A stretch of 64,000 bases of DNA from Polynucleobacter sp. JS-Polo-80-F4 (lineage in GTDB: Bacteria; Pseudomonadota; Gammaproteobacteria; Burkholderiales; Burkholderiaceae), in NCBI RefSeq assembly GCF_018881965.1, contig NZ_JACVPI010000001.1, positions 1,866,018-1,930,017 on the forward strand, read 5' to 3'. The notes under the pieces were generated by a model. It had not been told where the DNA came from. It saw only the letters and a list, made by a program, of their open reading frames with translations, and made no database searches. Position numbers and translations under genes: made by a program. This document shows, one piece after another, positions 1,067-55,272 of this stretch. Numbering within the stretch: the first letter of the stretch is position 1; the number at the start of each line of letters is the position of its first letter.

Positions 1067-1741
1067 TTATTTTGTAGGTTTTAGGTTTCTACCCAATAGA
1101 AAGATCTCAGAAGACTTTGCCCTTGATGCCTTGGGTTTGCGAGAGGCAACTGTTTTAAAGACCTTTTTGAAAGACTCCACGATCTGGCTGTAGCCACTAC
1201 CGTTAAAGCACTTAATCAACAATGCACCTTCAGGCTTAAGATGTGCGGTGGCAAAGTCTAGAGCTATCTCAGCTAAAAAAGCCATCCTGGCCGCGTCAGC
1301 TACGCCAACTCCAGAAAGATTGGGCGCCATGTCAGATAGAACCAAGTCCACCTTACCTTCGGCCTCTTTGGGAAGTAAAGCCTCAAGCGCAGCCAGACCC
1401 TCATCTTCGCGGAAGTCTCCTTGAATAAAGCTCACATCTGCAATATCTTCCATCGGCAAAATATCAATCGCAATAATCTGCCCATCAGGTTTACCCGATT
1501 CAATCTTAGGATTGGTTTTACCAAGCTCAGTTAAGCGATTACGGACGTACTGGGACCAGCTCCCAGGGGCGCTTCCTAAGTCCACAATAGTCATGCCTGC
1601 TTTGATGAGGTGATCTTGCTCGTCAATTTCACTGAGCTTGTAAACCGCCCTCGCTCGATAACCCTCTTTTTGAGCCATCTTTACGTAGGGATCAGTTAAG
1701 TGATCCTGCAACCAACTTTTATTAAATTTATTCTTTGCCAC
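1067..1741 (-). CDS. rlmE: 23S rRNA (uridine-2'-O)-methyltransferase RlmE
   Basis: Methylates the 2'-hydroxyl of U2552 in 23S rRNA late in 50S assembly, using S-adenosylmethionine. The 224 residues are close to the usual length. The SAM-binding motif DLGSAPGSW is near residue 55. The K-D-K-E catalytic tetrad is visible: K35 in AVYKL, Asp in LSDMAPN, Lys in LLIKCFNG and Glu in SSEIFLL. The start is GTG at 1741; the next residues match the family N terminus. The gene lies upstream of ftsH in the same direction and is divergent from the yhbY-type gene, the layout seen in many proteobacteria. Confidence 0.96.
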
Positions 1742-1867
1742 AACTTACCCACTTTCGCCTTCCATTTTCCTAGTTTCCGCCCTCTAAAGCAAAAGGAATT
1801 ACGGAATATATCGTTAAATTTGCTGTAATGAGCTGAATTGGACGTTGAATGCTCTATCATCAAGCCC

Positions 1868-2494
1868 ATGACCGCACTAATCCTTACCCCCGCACAACGT
1901 AAATCCCTCAAAGCCGATGCTCATGACTTAAGTCCTGTGGTGATGGTTGGTGGCGATGGTTTGACTCCCTCCGTGATTAAAGAAGCTAAATTGGCGATTG
2001 GTCACCATGGCTTAATCAAGATACGTGTTTTTGGCGATGATCGTGAAGCTCGCATTGCCATTTATGAAGAGCTCTGCGACAAATTAGGTGCTGCTCCAGT
2101 TCAACACATTGGCAAGTTGCTGGTGCTATGGAAACCAAAAGATGCTGTTGAGGAAGCATTCAGCAATCTAGGTCGCTCTAGCAAGCAAACTAAAAAAACG
2201 CTGCAAGCACCACGCACTAAACGTCAACCTAATCGCACAGTAACAAAAACAGGTGTTCGCACAAGCACATCCGAAAGATCTGATCGTCGCTCCGCTTCTA
2301 ATAAGTCTCCTTTTGAGCGAGCTGCAGCAGTGAAGTCAGCAACCCCCAAGAAGCGGGTATTACGTTCAGAAGCAGCTGAATCCAAGATTGGCTGGTCTTC
2401 TCCTGGTTATAGAAAAGCTACAGCCGCACCAGCACCAATTAAGAAACGTAAGGTAAGAATGAGTAGCACCAAGAAAAAATCATTGGGGTCTTAA
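1868..2494 (+). CDS. yhbY: YhbY-family CRM-domain RNA-binding protein with long basic tail
   Basis: Small RNA-binding protein associated with pre-50S ribosomal subunits. Residues 1-95 form the CRM domain (LTPAQRKSLKADAHDL, the VVMVGGDGLT loop with its G-x-x-G core, then IGKLLVLWKP). The family member in E. coli is about 97 residues; here a further 110 follow, rich in Lys, Arg, Ser, Thr and Ala and looking disordered, with several RSxR/KKR-like patches. I start at the ATG at 1868 because MTALILTPAQR matches family N termini; an upstream in-frame ATG at 1838 would add ten unmatched residues. It is divergent from rlmE and followed by a rho-independent terminator. Confidence 0.9.
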   Translation: MTALILTPAQRKSLKADAHDLSPVVMVGGDGLTPSVIKEAKLAIGHHGLIKIRVFGDDREARIAIYEELCDKLGAAPVQHIGKLLVLWKPKDAVEEAFSNLGRSSKQTKKTLQAPRTKRQPNRTVTKTGVRTSTSERSDRRSASNKSPFERAAAVKSATPKKRVLRSEAAESKIGWSSPGYRKATAAPAPIKKRKVRMSSTKKKSLGS

Positions 2495-2526
2495 TAGACT
2501 TTAGATAGGTCCTAGATACAAACATA

Positions 2527-2549
2527 AACGCTGCTAGTCAGCGTTTTTT
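2527..2549 (+). terminator. Rho-independent terminator of yhbY
   Basis: AACGCTG (2527-2533), loop CTAGT, CAGCGTT (2539-2545) running into six T's (2544-2549) on the plus strand. The distal arm lies inside the last codons of the convergent DUF4149 gene, which ends at 2534. Confidence 0.85.
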
Positions 2550-3007
2550 GTTGCCCGCCAAACAAGCGCAAGTCCGAGCAAGGACTGGATCATAAATAAA
2601 ATGCTAGAGGCGCCATGCAGGCGACTAAATAAAACAGCATAAGATGATTCACGCACAGAAAGACCTGAATATAGAGCCTGGTCCCTTAGGGAGTTCATCC
2701 AGGGTATTAGAATAAATGCAGCGCCTACTACGCAAGCCAACATACCTAACAATATCCAGCGCATTAGCCGGTAATGCGCCAACTCATGACGTACCAGAAA
2801 GCTTGCCATCAACATTAATAGTAAGGAGATAACAACGCCAGAGTAGGCGGTGACTTTAAAAAGATTCGCGGCCACCATGCCGGCGACTTGCCTATCACCC
2901 AAGCTTGAAAAAAGAATGGGCACAACTAAAAAGCCAATCGTAATAAAGCTACCAACCCAGAGTCCTGATATCAGGCTAAATATTCTCTGGGTTCGGATGG
3001 GATGCAT
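2534..3007 (-). CDS. DUF4149 domain-containing integral membrane protein
   Basis: A 157-residue inner-membrane protein with four predicted helices, at about residues 9-31, 47-69, 81-101 and 133-151. The second residue group (GLWVGSFITIGFLVVPILF) and the late LHGASS segment fit the DUF4149 family, common in betaproteobacteria and of unknown function. It starts with ATG at 3007, sharing one base with the greA stop (TAATG), so it is translationally coupled to greA and is the last gene of the carA-carB-greA run. No catalytic residues stand out. The family call is by pattern recognition. Confidence 0.8.
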   Translation of the reverse strand: MHPIRTQRIFSLISGLWVGSFITIGFLVVPILFSSLGDRQVAGMVAANLFKVTAYSGVVISLLLMLMASFLVRHELAHYRLMRWILLGMLACVVGAAFILIPWMNSLRDQALYSGLSVRESSYAVLFSRLHGASSILFMIQSLLGLALVWRATKNAD

Positions 3008-3483
3008 TAGACGTAACGCACTGCCAAGATTTCAACTTCGCGATTACCGCCTGGGGCTTGAACTGCAACTACATCGCCCTCTTCTTTACTGATCAACGCA
3101 CGAGCAATTGGTGAGCTAATAGAAATTTTATTGAACTCAATATCAGCTTCATCGTCACCAACTATCTGATAGGTTAATTTAGTGCCATCCTCTAGATCTT
3201 CCAAATCAACGGTAGCGCCAAAAACGACACGGCCAGTCACATCCAATGAAGCGGGATCAATAATTTGGGCGGCTGAAAGCTTACCCTCTAACTCTTGAAT
3301 GCGCCCTTCAATGAAGCCTTGTTTTTCTTTAGCGGCATCATATTCAGCATTCTCTGATAAGTCGCCTTGAGCGCGAGCTTCGGAGATGGCAATAATCACT
3401 GAGGGGCGTTCTACATGCTTAAGGCGGTGCAATTCCTCTTTGAGAAGTTCTGCACCGCGCTTGGTAATCGGAATTGTGCTCAT
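3007..3483 (-). CDS. greA: Transcription elongation factor GreA
   Basis: Binds the RNA polymerase secondary channel and stimulates cleavage of backtracked transcripts. At 158 residues it has the normal length. The N-terminal coiled coil (about 1-75) carries the acidic tip in [16 protein letters not shown], which places Mg2+ in the polymerase active site; the C-terminal FKBP-like domain ends in [11 protein letters not shown]. It lies 58 bases after carB, a carAB-greA order common in proteobacteria, and overlaps the DUF4149 gene by one base. Confidence 0.97.
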
Positions 3484-6805: not shown

Positions 6806-8001
6806 TATTTGCCCTCCTTCTTGCTGGCAGCATTCATGAGCTCCACAAATCGATCAAATAAATAGGCGATGTCATGAGGACCAGGTGAGGCCTCAGGATG
6901 TCCCTGGAAACAGAGTGCCGGCTTATCTTTCCAAGCCAAACCTTGTAAAGATCCGTCGAACAAGGAAACATGAGTAACGCGAATATTGTCTGGCAGAGTA
7001 TTCGCATCAACAGCAAAGCCGTGATTCTGCGAAGTGATTGCAACACGACCAGTATCCAAATCCTTCACTGGATGATTGGCGCCATGGTGACCGAACTTCA
7101 TCTTCAAAGTTTTTGCGCCAGCAGCTAACCCCATGATTTGATGACCTAAACAGATACCAAAGGTCGGGACGCCCTGTTCAATAATTTCTTTTGCAGCAGC
7201 GATTGCGTAATCGCATGGACCGGGATCGCCAGGACCGTTTGAAAAGAACACACCATCAGGATTCATAGCCAATACCTCGGCTGCACTAGTTTGCGCAGGC
7301 ACAACCGTAAGCTGACAACCGCGCTCAGTGAGCATGCGCAAAATATTGCGCTTCACACCAAAGTCATAGGCAACTACTTTCTTAACCGGCTTTCCAGTAT
7401 CCAAAGTTCTGTAAGCTGGTTTGCCATTTGGACCATGCAGATCCCATTCAGCTTCACGCCACTCGTATGATTTCTGGGTAGTCACAACCTTCGCAAGGTC
7501 TAAGCCAGACATACCAGGAAAAGCCTTGGCAAGCTCAAGCGCTTTCGCACCCAGTGCTTCATAGCTATCACCTACCTTGCCGGCAACAATCGCACCCGAT
7601 TGGGCGCCTTTATCTCGGAGAATTCTGGTGAGCTTGCGAGTATCTATTCCTGCAATGCCCAATATGCCAGCTTTAGTGAGATAGTCATCCAAAGAACCTT
7701 CTGCGCGGAAGTTAGATACGCGCTTTGGCAGATCCTTAATGACCAGGCCTGCAGCATGAATCTGATCGGACTCAGCATCCTGAGTATTCACACCAACATT
7801 ACCAATGTGCGGGTAGGTCAATGTCACAATTTGACGTGAGTAACTAGGATCAGTAATGATCTCTTGGTATCCAGTCAATGCGGTATTGAAAACGACTTCG
7901 CCGGTAGTTTCGCCTGGGGCGCCAATACTAAATCCGGGAAATAAGGTGCCGTCGGCTAAAGCCAACACGGCGGGGGGAAAAGAAGGAAGCAAGGGTGACA
8001 A
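6805..8001 (-). CDS. carA: Carbamoyl-phosphate synthase, small (glutaminase) subunit
   Basis: Hydrolyses glutamine and feeds ammonia to CarB. The 398 residues comprise the small-subunit N-terminal domain (about 8-150) and a class I glutamine amidotransferase domain with the nucleophilic Cys in [10 protein letters not shown] and the His/Glu pair in [11 protein letters not shown]. The start is TTG at 8001: GGAG lies five bases upstream, while the nearby ATG at 8006 is out of frame. A second TTG three codons in is possible. About 180 bases of leader separate it from the prpE terminator, so its promoter must lie at 8002-8180; I could not settle on one hexamer pair there. Confidence 0.97.
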
Positions 8002-8181
8002 ACCATCTCCAGTCCCTGCTCCATCCGACGCTCAAAACCCTCAAATAGACCAACCCGAGGATGTTTTTGCGGGAGGTGAGTGTCTTTAAGCGCTAGGGTA
8101 TTTAATAAGTTTCGAACCCTACAATCATACCATTTTTGCTCGTAAACCCTTGGATATCCTGCCAAATGGGGCTTTGGAAGG

Positions 8182-8219
8182 AAAAAGCTCCTCCAGCCTA
8201 ATAACCGGAGGAGCTTTTT
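8182..8219 (-). terminator. Rho-independent terminator downstream of prpE
   Basis: GCTCCTCC (8187-8194), a twelve-base loop and GGAGGAGC (8207-8214), flanked by A5 and T5 so the stem extends to 13 pairs and can work on both strands. It closes the gloB-mltD-prpE run and separates it from the carA promoter. Confidence 0.9.
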
Positions 8220-47766: not shown

Positions 47767-47803
47767 ATCTTGCAGATGACCCAATAATCAAGGGGTCATC
47801 TGC
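47767..47803 (-). terminator. Rho-independent terminator of leuA
   Basis: GCAGATGACCC (one arm 47772-47782) pairs with GGGTCATCTGC (47793-47803), an 11-pair perfect stem. On the minus strand it is followed by AAGATTTTTAC. The upstream arm overlaps the last leuA codons (stop at 47788-47790). Confidence 0.85.
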
Positions 47804-49335
47804 GCATTGAGCTTAGCTTGGCTCGGATCATGCAATTTATTCAAAGCCGATAAATACGCTTTTGCAGATGCAGCAATAATGTCGGGATCGGTACCTACCC
47901 CATTCACAATTCGCCCACCTTTTGCCAGGCGCACAGTAACCTCTCCCTGTGATTGCGTTCCCGATGTGATCGCATTCACTGAATAGAGCAACTGCTCAGC
48001 GCCACTCTTTGCTATTTCCTCGATTGCATTCAAGCTCGCATCTACCGGGCCATTGCCCTCCGCCTCAGAGCTAATTTCTTTATCTCCCATGCGGAATGTC
48101 ACACGGGATTTAGGGCGCTCACCAGTTTCTGAATGCTGACTTAATGAAATAAATTTGTAGTGCTCGCCCTCTTCTGCTGCTGCTGAGTCAGACATGATGG
48201 CAATAATATCTTCATCAAAAATTTCAGACTTTTGATCTGCTAATGTTTTAAATCGAGTGAACGCTTCATTCAAATCCGCCTCAGCTTCAACAGTAATACC
48301 CAACTCCTGCAAGCGCTGTTTAAAGGCATTGCGACCAGATAATTTACCCAAAACAATCTTATTGGCAGACCAGCCTACGTCTTCTGCACGCATGATTTCA
48401 TAGGTATCGCGATTCTTCAAAATACCGTCTTGGTGAATACCAGAAGTATGGGCAAATGCATTGGCGCCAACAACAGCCTTGTTAGGCTGCACGACAAAGC
48501 CAGTGATCTGAGAAACCAATTTAGAAGCAGGAACTATTTGAGTTGCATCAATACCGCAAACCATATCGAAATAGTCTTTGCGTGTACGCAATGCCATCAC
48601 AATCTCTTCTAATGCAGTATTGCCTGCGCGCTCACCTAAGCCATTAATCGTGCACTCAATTTGACGAGCTCCGCCAATCTTTACGCCAGCCAAAGAATTG
48701 GCAACAGCCATACCTAAGTCGTTATGACAATGCACTGACCAAACCGCTTTGTCAGAGTTAGGTACACGGGTACGCAAGGTTTTGATGAACTCACCATATA
48801 ACTCGGGGGTTGCATAACCTACTGTATCTGGGATGTTAATCGTAGAGGCGCCTTCATTAATGACGGCCTCAACTACCCTGCACAAGAAATCCATTTCTGA
48901 GCGATAACCATCTTCTGCTGAAAACTCAATATCCGAGGCCAAGTTACGCGCGAAACGAATTGAGCGCTTAGCCTGCTCCAATACCTCTTCTGGTGACATA
49001 CGTAACTTCACAGCCATGTGCAATGGGCTGGTAGCTAAGAATGCATGAATGCGTTTGGCATTAGCCGCTTGCAAGGCATCTGCAGCGCGTGTGATGTCTT
49101 TGTCATTCGCCCTGGCCAATGAACATACGATTGAATCCTTGACTGCGGCGGCAACTGCAGAGATAGCCTGAAAGTCTCCCTCAGAGCTAGCAGCAAAACC
49201 TGCTTCAATCACATCCACTTTAAGGCGCTCTAATTGACGAGCAATACGAACCTTCTCGTCTTTAGTCATCGATGCGCCAGGGGATTGCTCGCCATCACGT
49301 AAGGTGGTGTCAAAAATGATTACTTTGTCGCTCAT
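47788..49335 (-). CDS. leuA: 2-isopropylmalate synthase
   Basis: First committed step of leucine synthesis: condenses 2-ketoisovalerate with acetyl-CoA. The 515 residues have the DRE-TIM barrel ([16 protein letters not shown] with the Arg-Asp pair; metal-binding [29 protein letters not shown]) and a C-terminal leucine-binding regulatory domain from about residue 385 ([25 protein letters not shown] ... [32 protein letters not shown]). I start at ATG 49335: GGAG lies seven bases upstream; GTG 49338 is the alternative. The gene follows pssA across a leader with a leucine-rich peptide and an attenuator. Confidence 0.97.
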
Positions 49336-49393: not shown

Positions 49394-49418
49394 CAAAAAC
49401 CCCAGCAATTAGCTGGGG
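49394..49418 (-). terminator. leuA attenuator terminator
   Basis: On the minus strand CCCCAGC (49412-49418), loop TAATT and GCTGGGG (49400-49406) are followed by TTTTTG. It is an intrinsic terminator placed between the leader-peptide stop and the leuA start. A competing partner, CTTGGGGC (49473-49480), overlaps the end of the leader-peptide gene and can pair with the GCCCCAG arm to form an antiterminator. Confidence 0.85.
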
Positions 49419-49459
49419 CTGGTATGTGTTGGCTAATGAATTTTCTTTATCTCATTAAC

Positions 49460-49537
49460 TCAGGCCTTACCCGCCCCAAGCTTTAGGCTTAGTGCTAGCA
49501 GAAGGAGGCTGGCTAAAGGTGAAAAGTTCATCAACAT
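49460..49537 (-). CDS. leuL: Leucine-rich leader peptide of the leuA attenuator (LeuL-like)
   Basis: A 25-codon reading frame, too short for standard gene calling: ATG at 49537, TGA at 49460-49462. The peptide begins MLMNFSPLASLLLLALSLK and ends LGAGKA. Nine of 25 residues are Leu, including four consecutive codons CTC-CTT-CTG-CTA, and all six leucine codons are used across the peptide. The stop lies 41 bases before a strong intrinsic terminator, which is followed by leuA. By analogy with the enterobacterial leu leader (also with four tandem Leu codons), stalling on these codons under leucine shortage would favour the antiterminator. No strong Shine-Dalgarno precedes either candidate ATG (49537 or 49531). 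A TATATT box ends six bases before 49537, so a leaderless start is possible. Confidence 0.8.
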   Translation of the reverse strand: MLMNFSPLASLLLLALSLKLGAGKA

Positions 49538-49543
49538 GGATTA

Positions 49544-49549
49544 AATATA
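49544..49549 (-). promoter_or_regulatory. Candidate -10 box for the leuL-leuA transcript
   Basis: TATATT on the minus strand, six bases before the leader ATG at 49537. The -35 region at 17-18 bases is weak. If used, transcription would start at or next to the leader ATG. The preceding CCCCAA-TTT-TTGGGG hairpin (49551-49565) directly follows the pssA stop. Confidence 0.35.
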
Positions 49550-49565
49550 CCCCAAAAATTGGGGA

Positions 49566-50429
49566 TTAGCTAAAACGCTTGCCACTGAGTCTTTCCCAGG
49601 CCCAAATGACATAGCCAGAGATTGAATACACGACGAATAAACCGAATAAGGTTAAAGGCGGGTTGGACGAGATCAAAACAAAAGTCAGAATCATTAAGAC
49701 CATCACGCCAAATGGAACGCGGTAGCGGACATCCAAGGCTTTACCACTATAAAAACGGGCATTTGAGACCATCGTTAGGCCCGCATAAACTGCAATAAAG
49801 AAGGTGATCCAAGGGATGGCGGTATCGCGCACTGGAATCTTGTTGTCGTCAGCCAGCCAGATAAATCCGGCCATCAAAGCGCCTGCAGCCGGGCTAGGTA
49901 GACCTTGAAAAAACTTCTTATCAACAACGCTAGTATTCACGTTAAAACGGGCCAAACGTAAAGCTGCGCCAGCACAATAAGTAAATGCCGCTAACCAGCC
50001 CCATTTACCCAAATCCTTCAGGGCCCATTCATATGCAACTAAAGCAGGCGCAACGCCAAAGGAAACCATGTCAGCCAATGAGTCATATTGCTCTCCAAAA
50101 GCACTCTGAGTATTGGTCATGCGCGCTACTCGACCATCCATTCCATCAAGTACTAGTGAAGCAAAAATAGCAATCGCGGCAATTTCAAACTGGTGATTCA
50201 TCGCATTAACGATGGCAAAGAAACCACAGAATAAAGCTGCGGTTGTAAATGCATTAGGCAAAAGGTAAATACCTTTGCTACGTAAGCGGGGCTTTTGCGG
50301 ATGCAAATCCTCTACTTCGTAATCAATACCATCGCCCAACTCCTCTGCCCATTGCCGCTCAGTCGATGAGGTATGACGAGAAGAGAGGCGGCTACGATCA
50401 ATACGACCACGACGGCGAAATGTACTCAA
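49566..50429 (-). CDS. pssA: CDP-diacylglycerol-serine O-phosphatidyltransferase
   Basis: Makes phosphatidylserine from CDP-diacylglycerol and serine in the inner membrane. The 287 residues carry the CDP-alcohol phosphatidyltransferase motif as DGMDGRVARMTNTQSAFGEQYDSLAD near residue 95-120, with the conserved Asp and Gly residues, plus six to eight helices. A basic N-terminal segment of about 50 residues precedes the first helix. The start is TTG at 50429 with GGGA six to seven bases upstream; no nearby ATG fits. It follows psd by 25 bases. Confidence 0.94.
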   Translation of the reverse strand: MSTFRRRGRIDRSRLSSRHTSSTERQWAEELGDGIDYEVEDLHPQKPRLRSKGIYLLPNAFTTAALFCGFFAIVNAMNHQFEIAAIAIFASLVLDGMDGRVARMTNTQSAFGEQYDSLADMVSFGVAPALVAYEWALKDLGKWGWLAAFTYCAGAALRLARFNVNTSVVDKKFFQGLPSPAAGALMAGFIWLADDNKIPVRDTAIPWITFFIAVYAGLTMVSNARFYSGKALDVRYRVPFGVMVLMILTFVLISSNPPLTLFGLFVVYSISGYVIWAWERLSGKRFS

Positions 50430-52722: not shown

Positions 52723-54509
52723 TAGAGATCCTCGCTACCCAAAAGCATTTCAGTAATACCCTTACCCGCTTGAACCATAGGCCAAACGTTTTCTTCTGGG
52801 TCAGTCTGGAAATCCATAAACACTGTGCGATCTTTTAGGCGAATTGCTTCTTTAAGCGCGCCCTCAACATCCGACTTCTTCTCGATGCGCATGCCGACGT
52901 GCCCAAAGGCCTCTGCCAATTTCACAAAGTCAGGCAAAGAATCCATATAAGAGCTGGAGTAACGCTTGTTATAGGTAAGTTCTTGCCATTGGCGGACCAT
53001 ACCTAAATAGCGGTTGTTTAAGGAAACAATTTTTACTGGGGTGTTGTATTGCTTACAGGTAGAAAGTTCCTGAATACACATCTGAATGGAGCCTTCGCCA
53101 GTAATAGCAAATACATCCTTGTCTGGGAAGGCCTTCTTGATGCCCATGGCATAAGGCAAGCCTACGCCCATAGTGCCAAGACCACCAGAGTTAATCCAAC
53201 GACGGGGCTTATCAAACTTGTAGAACTGAGCGGCCCACATTTGATGTTGACCTACGTCAGACGTGATGAATGCATCACCGCCAGTGAGTTCCCACAATTT
53301 TTGCACTACATACTGTGGCTTCACAATTTGAGAAGCTTCGTCGTACTTCAAGCAATCTTTTTTACGCCACTCGTTAATTTGATCCCACCAAGCGGCAACT
53401 TTATCGCCATTCTTACGTGGACCAGCAGCCTTCAATTGCGCAGTCATCTCAACCAATACCTCTTTGAGATTACCAACAATAGGAACATCTACCTTTACAC
53501 GCTTAGAAATTACAGAAGGATCAATATCAATGTGGATGATCTTGCGCGGATGACTTGCGAAGTGGGATGTGTTACCAATCACGCGGTCGTCAAAACGAGC
53601 GCCAATCGCAATCAATACATCACTGTGCTGCATCGCCATATTGGCTTCGTATGTTCCGTGCATACCGAGCATGCCTAAGAACTGTGGACTAGTTCCAGGG
53701 AACCCGCCTAAGCCCATGAGGGTGTTAGTTACTGGATAACCCAATAAGTCAGCGAACTCTTTTAATTCAGGAGCCGCATCAGAGAGGATCACACCACCGC
53801 CGGTATAGATGTATGGACGCTCGGCCTCTTGCAGCAAAGCTACCGCTTTACGAATCTGGCCGCTGTGACCCTTTACAACAGGGTTATAAGAACGCATTTC
53901 CAAGGTTTCCGGATATACAAATGGGCCCTTAGCTGCTGATACATCCTTAGGGATATCGATCAACACAGGACCTGGTCGGCCCGTCTGCGCAATATGGAAA
54001 GCTTTCTTCAAAACCAAAGGAAGATCTTTCACATCTTTGACGAGGAAATTGTGCTTTACCACTGGACGAGTGATACCAACCGTATCAGCCTCTTGGAAAG
54101 CATCTTCACCAATGGCATATGTTGGTACGTTACCGCTGATGATCACCAATGGAATGGAATCGGTATATGCAGTTGCAATACCAGTAACCGCATTGGTAAC
54201 ACCGGGGCCAGAGGTGACTAATGCAACGCCAACCTTACCGGTTGCGCGAGCATAGCCATCGGCAGCGTGAACAGCTGCTTGCTCATGGCGAACCAAGATA
54301 TGTTCAAACTTATCTTGCTTAAAAATTTCATCATAGATAAAGAGAACGGATCCACCTGGGTAACCCCAGACAAATTCAACGCCCTCTTTGTGCAATGCAT
54401 GCACGAGCATTTCAGCGCCAATCATTTCTGGAGGTGCTGCATCATTGTTTGTATTTATTGAGTCTTTGTTAGCTTTAGAAGCTAAGAATTCGGCGCTGCT
54501 TGTATTCAT
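52722..54509 (-). CDS. ilvB: Acetolactate synthase, large catalytic subunit
   Basis: Thiamine-diphosphate enzyme forming acetolactate or acetohydroxybutyrate. The 595 residues contain FVWGYPGGSVLFIYDE and HEQAAVHAADGYARATGKVG with the catalytic Glu, the FAD domain, and the ThDP/Mg site in EGSIQMCIQELSTCKQYNTPVKIVSLNNRYLG. The N terminus has about 28 extra hydrophilic residues before the conserved MIGAEMLVHAL. The start at ATG 54509 is supported by AAGGA eight bases upstream, but an internal start is possible. It heads the ilvB-ilvN-ilvC-psd-pssA-leuA run. Confidence 0.97.
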   Translation of the reverse strand: MNTSSAEFLASKANKDSINTNNDAAPPEMIGAEMLVHALHKEGVEFVWGYPGGSVLFIYDEIFKQDKFEHILVRHEQAAVHAADGYARATGKVGVALVTSGPGVTNAVTGIATAYTDSIPLVIISGNVPTYAIGEDAFQEADTVGITRPVVKHNFLVKDVKDLPLVLKKAFHIAQTGRPGPVLIDIPKDVSAAKGPFVYPETLEMRSYNPVVKGHSGQIRKAVALLQEAERPYIYTGGGVILSDAAPELKEFADLLGYPVTNTLMGLGGFPGTSPQFLGMLGMHGTYEANMAMQHSDVLIAIGARFDDRVIGNTSHFASHPRKIIHIDIDPSVISKRVKVDVPIVGNLKEVLVEMTAQLKAAGPRKNGDKVAAWWDQINEWRKKDCLKYDEASQIVKPQYVVQKLWELTGGDAFITSDVGQHQMWAAQFYKFDKPRRWINSGGLGTMGVGLPYAMGIKKAFPDKDVFAITGEGSIQMCIQELSTCKQYNTPVKIVSLNNRYLGMVRQWQELTYNKRYSSSYMDSLPDFVKLAEAFGHVGMRIEKKSDVEGALKEAIRLKDRTVFMDFQTDPEENVWPMVQAGKGITEMLLGSEDL

Positions 54510-54643
54510 TTTCTTTCGTCCTTTGCAATTTTCGGCAAAAAATTGATTGGTCTGTTCTATCTCCTGCTTATGGCCTGAGTTCGAACGGCGCTGCTACCGG
54601 AAAAAACCACTTCTTGAATGAGATTCTAGGTAGTAAGCCCTAT

Positions 54644-54673
54644 ATTCTATAGCAATCCCCTAAAATGGATCAA
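54644..54673 (-). promoter_or_regulatory. Candidate sigma-70 promoter of ilvB
   Basis: On the minus strand, TTGATC (54668-54673) and TAGAAT (54644-54649) with an 18-base spacer; an overlapping TATAGA at 16 bases is an alternative. It would give a leader of about 130 bases before ilvB, in which I see no terminator or leader peptide of the attenuation type. Confidence 0.45.
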
Positions 54674-54702
54674 TTCTTACAGATTCAGGTCTAATCCATT
54701 GC

Positions 54703-55272
54703 ATGGCATCAGCCCAAGAACTATCTGACTTTCTGAGTAGTGTCGAGCAGCGCGCTTTTAAGCAGGCGGTCTATGCCGTGCGTGATGATGATGCCGCATT
54801 AGATATTGTTCAAGATGCCATGATTAAGTTGGCCGAAAAATACGGGGATAGACCTGCCGCAGAACTTCCACTAGTCTTCACCAGAATTCTGCAAAACCGC
54901 ATTCATGACTGGTTTAGAAGGCAAAAGGTCCGAAATACCTGGGTCACCCTCTTTTCCAATATGGGGAAAAAGAGTGATGAAAGTGATGATTTTGACCCCC
55001 TGGAGTCCCTTTCAGCCCCGGATGACAGTGAAATTCACCAAGATGGGGCTTTTAAGCTTGAAAAGAGTCAACTTTTACAGGCTTTGGAGTCAGAAATATC
55101 TAAATTGCCTGTACGTCAACGAGAAGCCTTCCTGATGCGTTATTGGGATGAGCTAAGCATTACTGAGACGGCCAAAGCAATGGGTTGCAGTGAAGGTAGC
55201 GTCAAAACCCACTGTTCTAGGGCCACTCAGACTTTAGCTAAAGCATTGAAATTAAAAGGAATTACGCTGTGA
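54703..55272 (+). CDS. ECF-type RNA polymerase sigma factor
   Basis: 189 residues. Region 2 is seen in AFKQAVYAVRDDDAALDIVQDAMIKLAEKY and FTRILQNRIHDWFRRQK, region 4 in LPVRQREAFLMRYWDELSITETAKAMGCSEGSVKTHCSRATQTLAKAL. Between them is a linker of about 40 residues rich in Asp, Glu and Ser, longer than in minimal ECF factors. It opens a four-gene plus-strand unit and overlaps the next gene by four bases (GTGA), as expected of a sigma factor with a coupled regulator. Confidence 0.92.
   Translation: MASAQELSDFLSSVEQRAFKQAVYAVRDDDAALDIVQDAMIKLAEKYGDRPAAELPLVFTRILQNRIHDWFRRQKVRNTWVTLFSNMGKKSDESDDFDPLESLSAPDDSEIHQDGAFKLEKSQLLQALESEISKLPVRQREAFLMRYWDELSITETAKAMGCSEGSVKTHCSRATQTLAKALKLKGITL

Follow-up and report, generated by a model that had tools for sequence, protein, structure and literature searches.

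The enterobacterial leu attenuator, leuL, has three competing helices and rare CUA codons. In E. coli, the leu leader is described as a peptide of 28 aa with 4 Leu (PMC6123439). An actinobacterial Leu leader before leuA is described as having four consecutive Leu codons (PMC4046766), LeuL1 of S. lividans is reported as leaderless (PMC8079986), and the actinobacterial LEU element has been described as a pseudoknot (PMC1262725). The Sinorhizobium meliloti trpL attenuator (rnTrpL) is ribosome-dependent, and its RNA begins at the leader ATG (PMC7298713). In related bacteria, transcription starts exactly at the start codon are reported for 72 genes of B. cenocepacia (PMC4603805), and C. metallidurans is reported to have leaderless transcripts at 4.67% of its primary starts (PMC7563307); leuA is not named in the main texts of these two studies. 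The literature matches listed included no paper on transcription start sites in Polynucleobacter and none on leuA attenuation in Betaproteobacteria, some cases of which the proteobacterial attenuator survey of Vitreschak 2004 might include. The main text of Brewer 2021 (PMC8632094), a scan of Polynucleobacter intergenic regions, does not contain the term 'leuA', nor does that of Naville 2010 (PMC2965389) or of PMC11109978.

In the locus studied here, from a freshwater Polynucleobacter, leuA is very probably controlled by a ribosome-mediated, leucine-sensing transcription attenuator with a leaderless leader mRNA, as judged from sequence comparison. Its overall design is reminiscent of enterobacterial leuL, with a Leu-rich leader, tandem Leu codons before leuA and a putative attenuation mechanism. 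Unlike in the enterobacterial system, leuA alone lies downstream, the leader has no SD and is predicted to be leaderless, and a spacer hairpin lies within the antiterminator loop. A Leu-rich leader 5' of leuA is likewise shared with S. lividans LeuL1 and C. glutamicum cg4015, but phylum and sequence differ, and whereas LeuL1 is described as being without a typical terminator, the Polynucleobacter leader has an intrinsic terminator and an antiterminator. S. meliloti rnTrpL differs in responding to tryptophan and in belonging to the alphaproteobacteria. The mechanism is already known; among the literature matches listed, none describes the leaderless design for this lineage.

Within the window (the whole stretch of 64,000 nucleotides that was analysed), the minus strand carries, in this order, the two acetolactate synthase subunits (large, then small), ilvC, psd and pssA (NCBIfam names), followed by the leader, the terminator and leuA. 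The leuA product scored 888 bits against NCBIfam NF002087 (cut-off 729), and is 99% identical to LeuA of Polynucleobacter sp. 86C-FISCH (L190). Because the next ORF downstream of leuA is convergent with it, leuA seems not to share a transcript with later genes and to stand alone. At 54480-54760 (minus), ahead of the window's ilvB, no leader was seen. The features of the locus are as follows.

49566..50429, minus strand: pssA (TIGR00473), the upstream neighbour, its stop 28 nt from the leader ATG
49568..49573, minus strand: possible -35, TTAGCT, weak (3/6), at 18-nt spacing and overlapping the pssA end
49544..49549, minus strand: -10 hexamer TATATT, 6 nt upstream of the leader ATG
49460..49537, minus strand: leader ORF, MLMNFSPLASLLLLALSLKLGAGKA and stop, 25 codons with nine Leu, between pssA and leuA
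49496..49507, minus strand: tandem control codons CTC CTT CTG CTA (Leu), where changes are synonymous and replacement is almost absent
49473..49495, minus strand: hairpin 1:2 (GCACTAAG with CTTGGGGC), putative pause/protector, -7.7 kcal/mol, 3' of the tandem control codons
49468..49482, minus strand: segment 2, AGCTTGGGGCGGGTA, the antiterminator 5' arm, within the leader ORF
49433..49458, minus strand: spacer hairpin TTAATGA/TCATTAG, directly 3' of the leader stop, in the antiterminator loop
49411..49424, minus strand: segment 3, TACCAGCCCCAGCT, which pairs either with segment 2, as antiterminator, or with segment 4, as terminator
49395..49420, minus strand: intrinsic terminator 3:4 with U5 tract, 306/306 cells paired, -16.6 kcal/mol
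47788..49335, minus strand: leuA (2-isopropylmalate synthase), ATG at 49335, SD GGAGAG at 49346-49341

An earlier note on this DNA had described the 25-codon frame with its nine Leu codons, four of them in tandem, and all of these were found on the minus strand. If Leu is taken to be as frequent as in nine genes of the window, nine Leu in 25 codons has a binomial p of 9e-5. When both strands of the 64-kb window were scanned for ATG frames that are 12-45 codons long, contain LLLL and precede a terminator-like hairpin, the leader was the sole hit, entered twice on account of its two ATGs; three other frames contain LLLL, each without such a hairpin. Moreover, among the short promoter-abutting frames in the window, the leader alone has a residue run of at least 3. 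The 144 nt of the leader region fold with z = -2.99.

The comparison across the genus began from a LeuA match in 101/101 same-genus genomes (E 0.001). The LeuA N-terminal region and upstream DNA were obtained from 99 of these, G028 and G075 having a distant or partial match. With 15 further loci (L100-L114), five of them repeats, the set comprised 114 same-genus loci and 109 distinct spacers, among which close relatives are not independent. A group of 21 named loci from Polynucleobacter or near it (L190-L210) was excluded from both genus and non-genus counts, and L211 and L264 are duplicates. A Leu-rich frame, whose presence in relatives the earlier note had proposed as a check, lies upstream of leuA in all 114 fetched loci, with 6 to 11 Leu per leader among the 109. 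In every one of the 109 distinct spacers it is followed by a CCCCAG...TGGGG terminator. The gene immediately upstream is pssA in 99/99 loci and in the 15 further ones.

Constraint on the encoded peptide is evident from 59 leaders of 25 codons. Codons 11-18, which contain the Leu run, have a pS of 0.303 and a pN of 0.023, and the whole-frame pN/pS is 0.48, compared with 1.22 and 1.38 in the remaining two frames. The Leu positions interchange CTA, CTG, CTT, CTC, TTA and TTG. We class this short, Leu-codon-rich ORF adjoining leuA, with its coding constraint and predicted translation, as an amino-acid leader. CTA is the commonest Leu codon of the leaders (314/948) and is rare in the nine window genes (8/279 Leu codons), giving a Fisher p of 7e-31 that overstates the difference, the leaders being related to one another. 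If the rare CTA is decoded slowly, it would suit a stalling site.

Several natural variants were seen among the relatives. In L022 (genome G023), which was retained in the counts, a 1-nt deletion 3' of the tandem Leu codons shifts the frame and places the stop 13 nt later; this variant would move the finishing ribosome, and it counts against the attenuator reading. Eight relatives (L009, L014, L016, L032, L038, L041, L047 and L048) carry a PSGK-like insertion directly before a shortened Leu run. In L109 (genome G188), leuA (1501-3033) looks broken because it has eight in-frame stops; the leader and terminator are still present.

A -10 hexamer lies 6-9 nt 5' of the leader ATG in 109/109 distinct same-genus spacers. 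The hexamer is TATATT in 85, TATAGT in 22 and TATGAT in 2, and the distance is 6 nt in 95 spacers, 7 in 12, 8 in one and 9 in one. By chance, this promoter-plus-frame signature appeared in a mean of 2.45/109 shuffles and in 1/109 reverse complements. SD-like sequences are found before the leader in only 8/109 spacers, against 103/109 before leuA. Since the -10 keeps this distance throughout and SD-like sequences are rare, the leader mRNA is predicted to be leaderless. Given the usual sigma-70 spacing, transcription would start at the first base of the leader ATG or no more than two bases from it. Many -35 matches are weak, at 3/6 in 69/109 spacers and 2/6 in 7 more, which counts against the model; CTGACA, ATGACA or GTGACA (5/6 in some) is found 17 nt from the -10 in several deeper-branching relatives. 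The claim that leuA is controlled separately from the upstream ilv-psd-pssA genes gains from the conserved -10 at fixed spacing, but not from the window's own -35, which matches at only 3/6 positions. An extended -10 (TGn) was dropped as its spacing was unsuitable. An inverted repeat, CCCCAATTTTTGGGG (49550-49564, minus), between pssA and the leader and immediately 5' of the -10, is different in most relatives.

The terminator stem (49420-49398) comprises nine pairs, six of them G-C, with a loop of five, and the T5 tract lies at 49399-49395. The GC-rich hairpin and T5 had been reported correctly in the earlier note, although with seven pairs; its distance of 41 bases from the leader stop also holds, measured to the terminator CCCC. 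CTTGGGGC, at the end of the leader, is complementary to the terminator arm, as that note had observed, and the competing helices are kept in relatives. A longer antiterminator can be drawn as AGCU(U)GGGGC(G)GGUA with UACC(A)GCCCCAGCU, giving 13 pairs. The leader tail pairs with the terminator arm better than 95% of shuffles in 107/109 same-genus leaders.

Pairing was further assessed in an alignment of 34 diverse leaders drawn from the 109 (A1), in which L109 is the single sequence with a G-U replacing a terminator G-C pair. The 12-pair version of the antiterminator is paired in 87.9% of 404 cells, compared with at most 47.6% for slid copies, and the pairs other than GGGG-CCCC fail in 2-9 of the 34 sequences. 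Four of its pairs are changed on both sides, a number equalled by copies slid -1 and -3 columns and reached in 19/500 shuffles; the number of pair types was reached in 246/500. Of the covarying pairs that had been proposed as a check, the antiterminator therefore retains the pairing but offers covariation matched by slid copies: its pairing is kept in relatives, and covariation adds little to this. For hairpin 1:2, which RNAalifold proposed without being supplied with it, 92.9% of 238 cells are paired (slid copies at most 60.5%). Five of its seven pairs are changed on both sides, matched by 2/500 shuffles, and slid copies reach no more than 3 pairs. In the spacer hairpin 79% of cells are paired (slid copies at most 54.3%) and 5/7 pairs are changed on both sides, as many as in copies slid +2 and +3. 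Judged on these aligned leaders, compensatory change is convincing for hairpin 1:2 only. The earlier note mentions neither this hairpin nor the CTA bias, nor that the leader seems to have no 5' UTR.

The locus shows the sequence features expected of a classical ribosome-mediated attenuator, and these elements suggest the following mechanism. When Leu-tRNA is plentiful, the ribosome would reach the leader stop and cover segment 2, so that terminator 3:4 forms before leuA. When Leu-tRNA is scarce, the ribosome would stall at CTC CTT CTG CTA, open hairpin 1:2 and free segment 2. Segment 3 would then be captured by the freed segment 2 ahead of the synthesis of segment 4, and RNA polymerase would continue into leuA. 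If no ribosome is present, 1:2 and 3:4 are both expected to form, leading to termination. Translation-coupled attenuation of leuA is the reading proposed in the earlier note, and it is well supported in silico by the Leu-rich frame and terminator in 109/109 spacers, together with the competing helices that are kept; a leucine response of leuA is predicted. The locus would represent a comparatively well supported leucine attenuator for a betaproteobacterial genus, and annotation of Polynucleobacter genomes could mark it as a likely site of leucine control.

Folding with ribosome positions was modelled by assuming a ribosome footprint of ~14 nt and removing the RNA beneath the ribosome. With the ribosome on the tandem Leu codons and segment 4 unmade, the remaining RNA folds as the antiterminator (-27.1 kcal/mol). 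With the ribosome at the leader stop the terminator folds (-16.8 kcal/mol), and without a ribosome the predicted fold consists of hairpin 1:2 and the terminator. Footprint edges of 8-17 nt leave the antiterminator/terminator outcome unchanged. Once segment 4 is present, stalls at Leu codons 1-3 keep the terminator in the minimum-energy fold, and the antiterminator appears at codon 4 only. That the terminator is favoured at equilibrium for codons 1-3 counts against the model, which therefore needs 2:3 pairing before segment 4 is made. Co-transcriptional attenuation generally assumes that segments 2 and 3 pair while segment 4 is unmade.

One account of the hairpin, which follows pssA, is that it merely terminates the ilv-psd-pssA operon and that the Leu frame is accidental. 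This simple reading fits the position of the hairpin but is contradicted by the coding constraint, the CTA bias, the competing helices and the 109/109 conservation, and we regard it as scarcely credible. An attenuator could also exist without being leaderless, if transcripts came mainly from ilv-psd-pssA or from a promoter within pssA and the leader were translated by re-initiation. The constant place of pssA directly 5' in 114/114 same-genus loci, with its stop 28 nt from the leader ATG, would suit such coupling, as would the weak window -35. Yet the -10 hexamer stands at 6-9 nt in all 109 spacers, and together with the frame in 63/132 non-genus spacers. Some deeper-branching relatives have a 5/6 -35 at 17 nt, and 101/109 leaders are without an SD-like sequence. 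This non-leaderless version is improbable.

A similarly small likelihood attaches to the idea that the leader RNA or peptide acts in trans as well, by analogy with Sinorhizobium rnTrpL/peTrpL, a precedent described in PMC7298713. A terminated leader of ~140 nt would be released, and the peptide tail LGAGxx is conserved in 88/109 leaders. However, the remaining 21 have other tails, e.g. LGSVHA. Within the 88, GGG is kept in 88/88 and GGT in 87/88; the conservation of the tail is attributable to the pairing of segment 2, and thus counts against a role in trans.

Outside the genus, we compiled 132 distinct spacers from family and order samples and best named relatives, a non-random set. A Leu-rich frame lies 6-9 nt 3' of a promoter-like site in 63 of them, against a shuffle mean of 0.15 and 0 in reverse complements. 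At these 63 loci, SD-like sequences were found 0 times before the leader and 58 times before leuA. The pattern points to SD-less, promoter-abutting Leu leaders before leuA across many other Burkholderiales, so that leaderless leader peptides can be tested in betaproteobacteria that are easy to grow. Relaxing the promoter limits raised the number of non-genus leaders to 75, with a terminator-like hairpin in 34 and none in 41. Two of the 34 calls, L127 and L153, are weak, and a third, L170, resembles the pssA end and not a leader. The per-locus antiterminator test gave 2/34 at p 0.05 and is not counted as support.

The genus-built RNA model matched 4/100 genomes of the order at E 0.01, three of them in-genus; in the fourth, G292, the match lies 1.3 Mb away from its leuA. 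As RNA-model homology is confined to the genus, what supports the order-wide claim is position, promoter spacing and Leu content rather than aligned RNA, and common descent of the non-genus leaders, which the model missed, is no more than plausible from their position. Outside the genus the leader tails vary by group (VGTRAR, ARLPR, LLLRPAR, HGRRQ).

Promoter-abutting Leu-rich leaders with no intrinsic terminator detected were seen in L129-L132, L137, L138, L154, L156, L159-L161 and L163-L169. In several of them the stop is followed by a C-rich stretch, which could be compatible with control by Rho. These loci also pose the problem of how a leader operates in relatives where no terminator is visible. 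In L115-L122, eight loci of one genus, the pssA end lies ~1 kb from leuA in seven, and no pssA turned up in the eighth; none of the eight showed a promoter-abutting frame rich in Leu. Promoter-abutting short frames that are not Leu-rich (MISG...) precede leuA in L115, L116, L120 and L212 (Pandoraea or near), and are possibly leaders with a changed or lost role.

We also put forward, as a speculation that is rather unlikely to hold, that the attenuator may be both a leucine sensor and an origin-of-transcript filter, and that leaderless Leu leaders before leuA may be an old Burkholderiales trait. If the former were true, RNAs from the leader's own promoter would alone offer ribosomes a 5'-terminal AUG, and read-through RNAs from ilv-psd-pssA, carrying an SD-less internal leader, would form 1:2 and 3:4 and always terminate. 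If the latter were true, leaderless Leu leaders would persist even without a visible intrinsic terminator.

The Rfam Leu leader family (RF00512) gave no match to this region, neither at gathering nor at E 10; the leader families listed at E 10 were Trp_leader (20.3 bits, cut-off 41) and rnk_pseudo (16.9 bits, cut-off 55). RNA model R1 had three matches in its own genome: the leader, L272 and L271. L272 (0.109) is the leader's terminator on the other strand. L271 (36.8 bits) was rejected as a second copy, there being no Leu-rich frame over the matched strand, and is taken as a look-alike terminator; it lies across the last part of a cytochrome-c-type gene and the interval that separates this from a convergent lysA-like gene (names read from translations). 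Elsewhere in the window, at 7993-8192 (minus), lies a carA motif RNA (RF04192, 203.6 bits, gathering 100), a riboswitch candidate described as first found in Polynucleobacter (PMC8632094).
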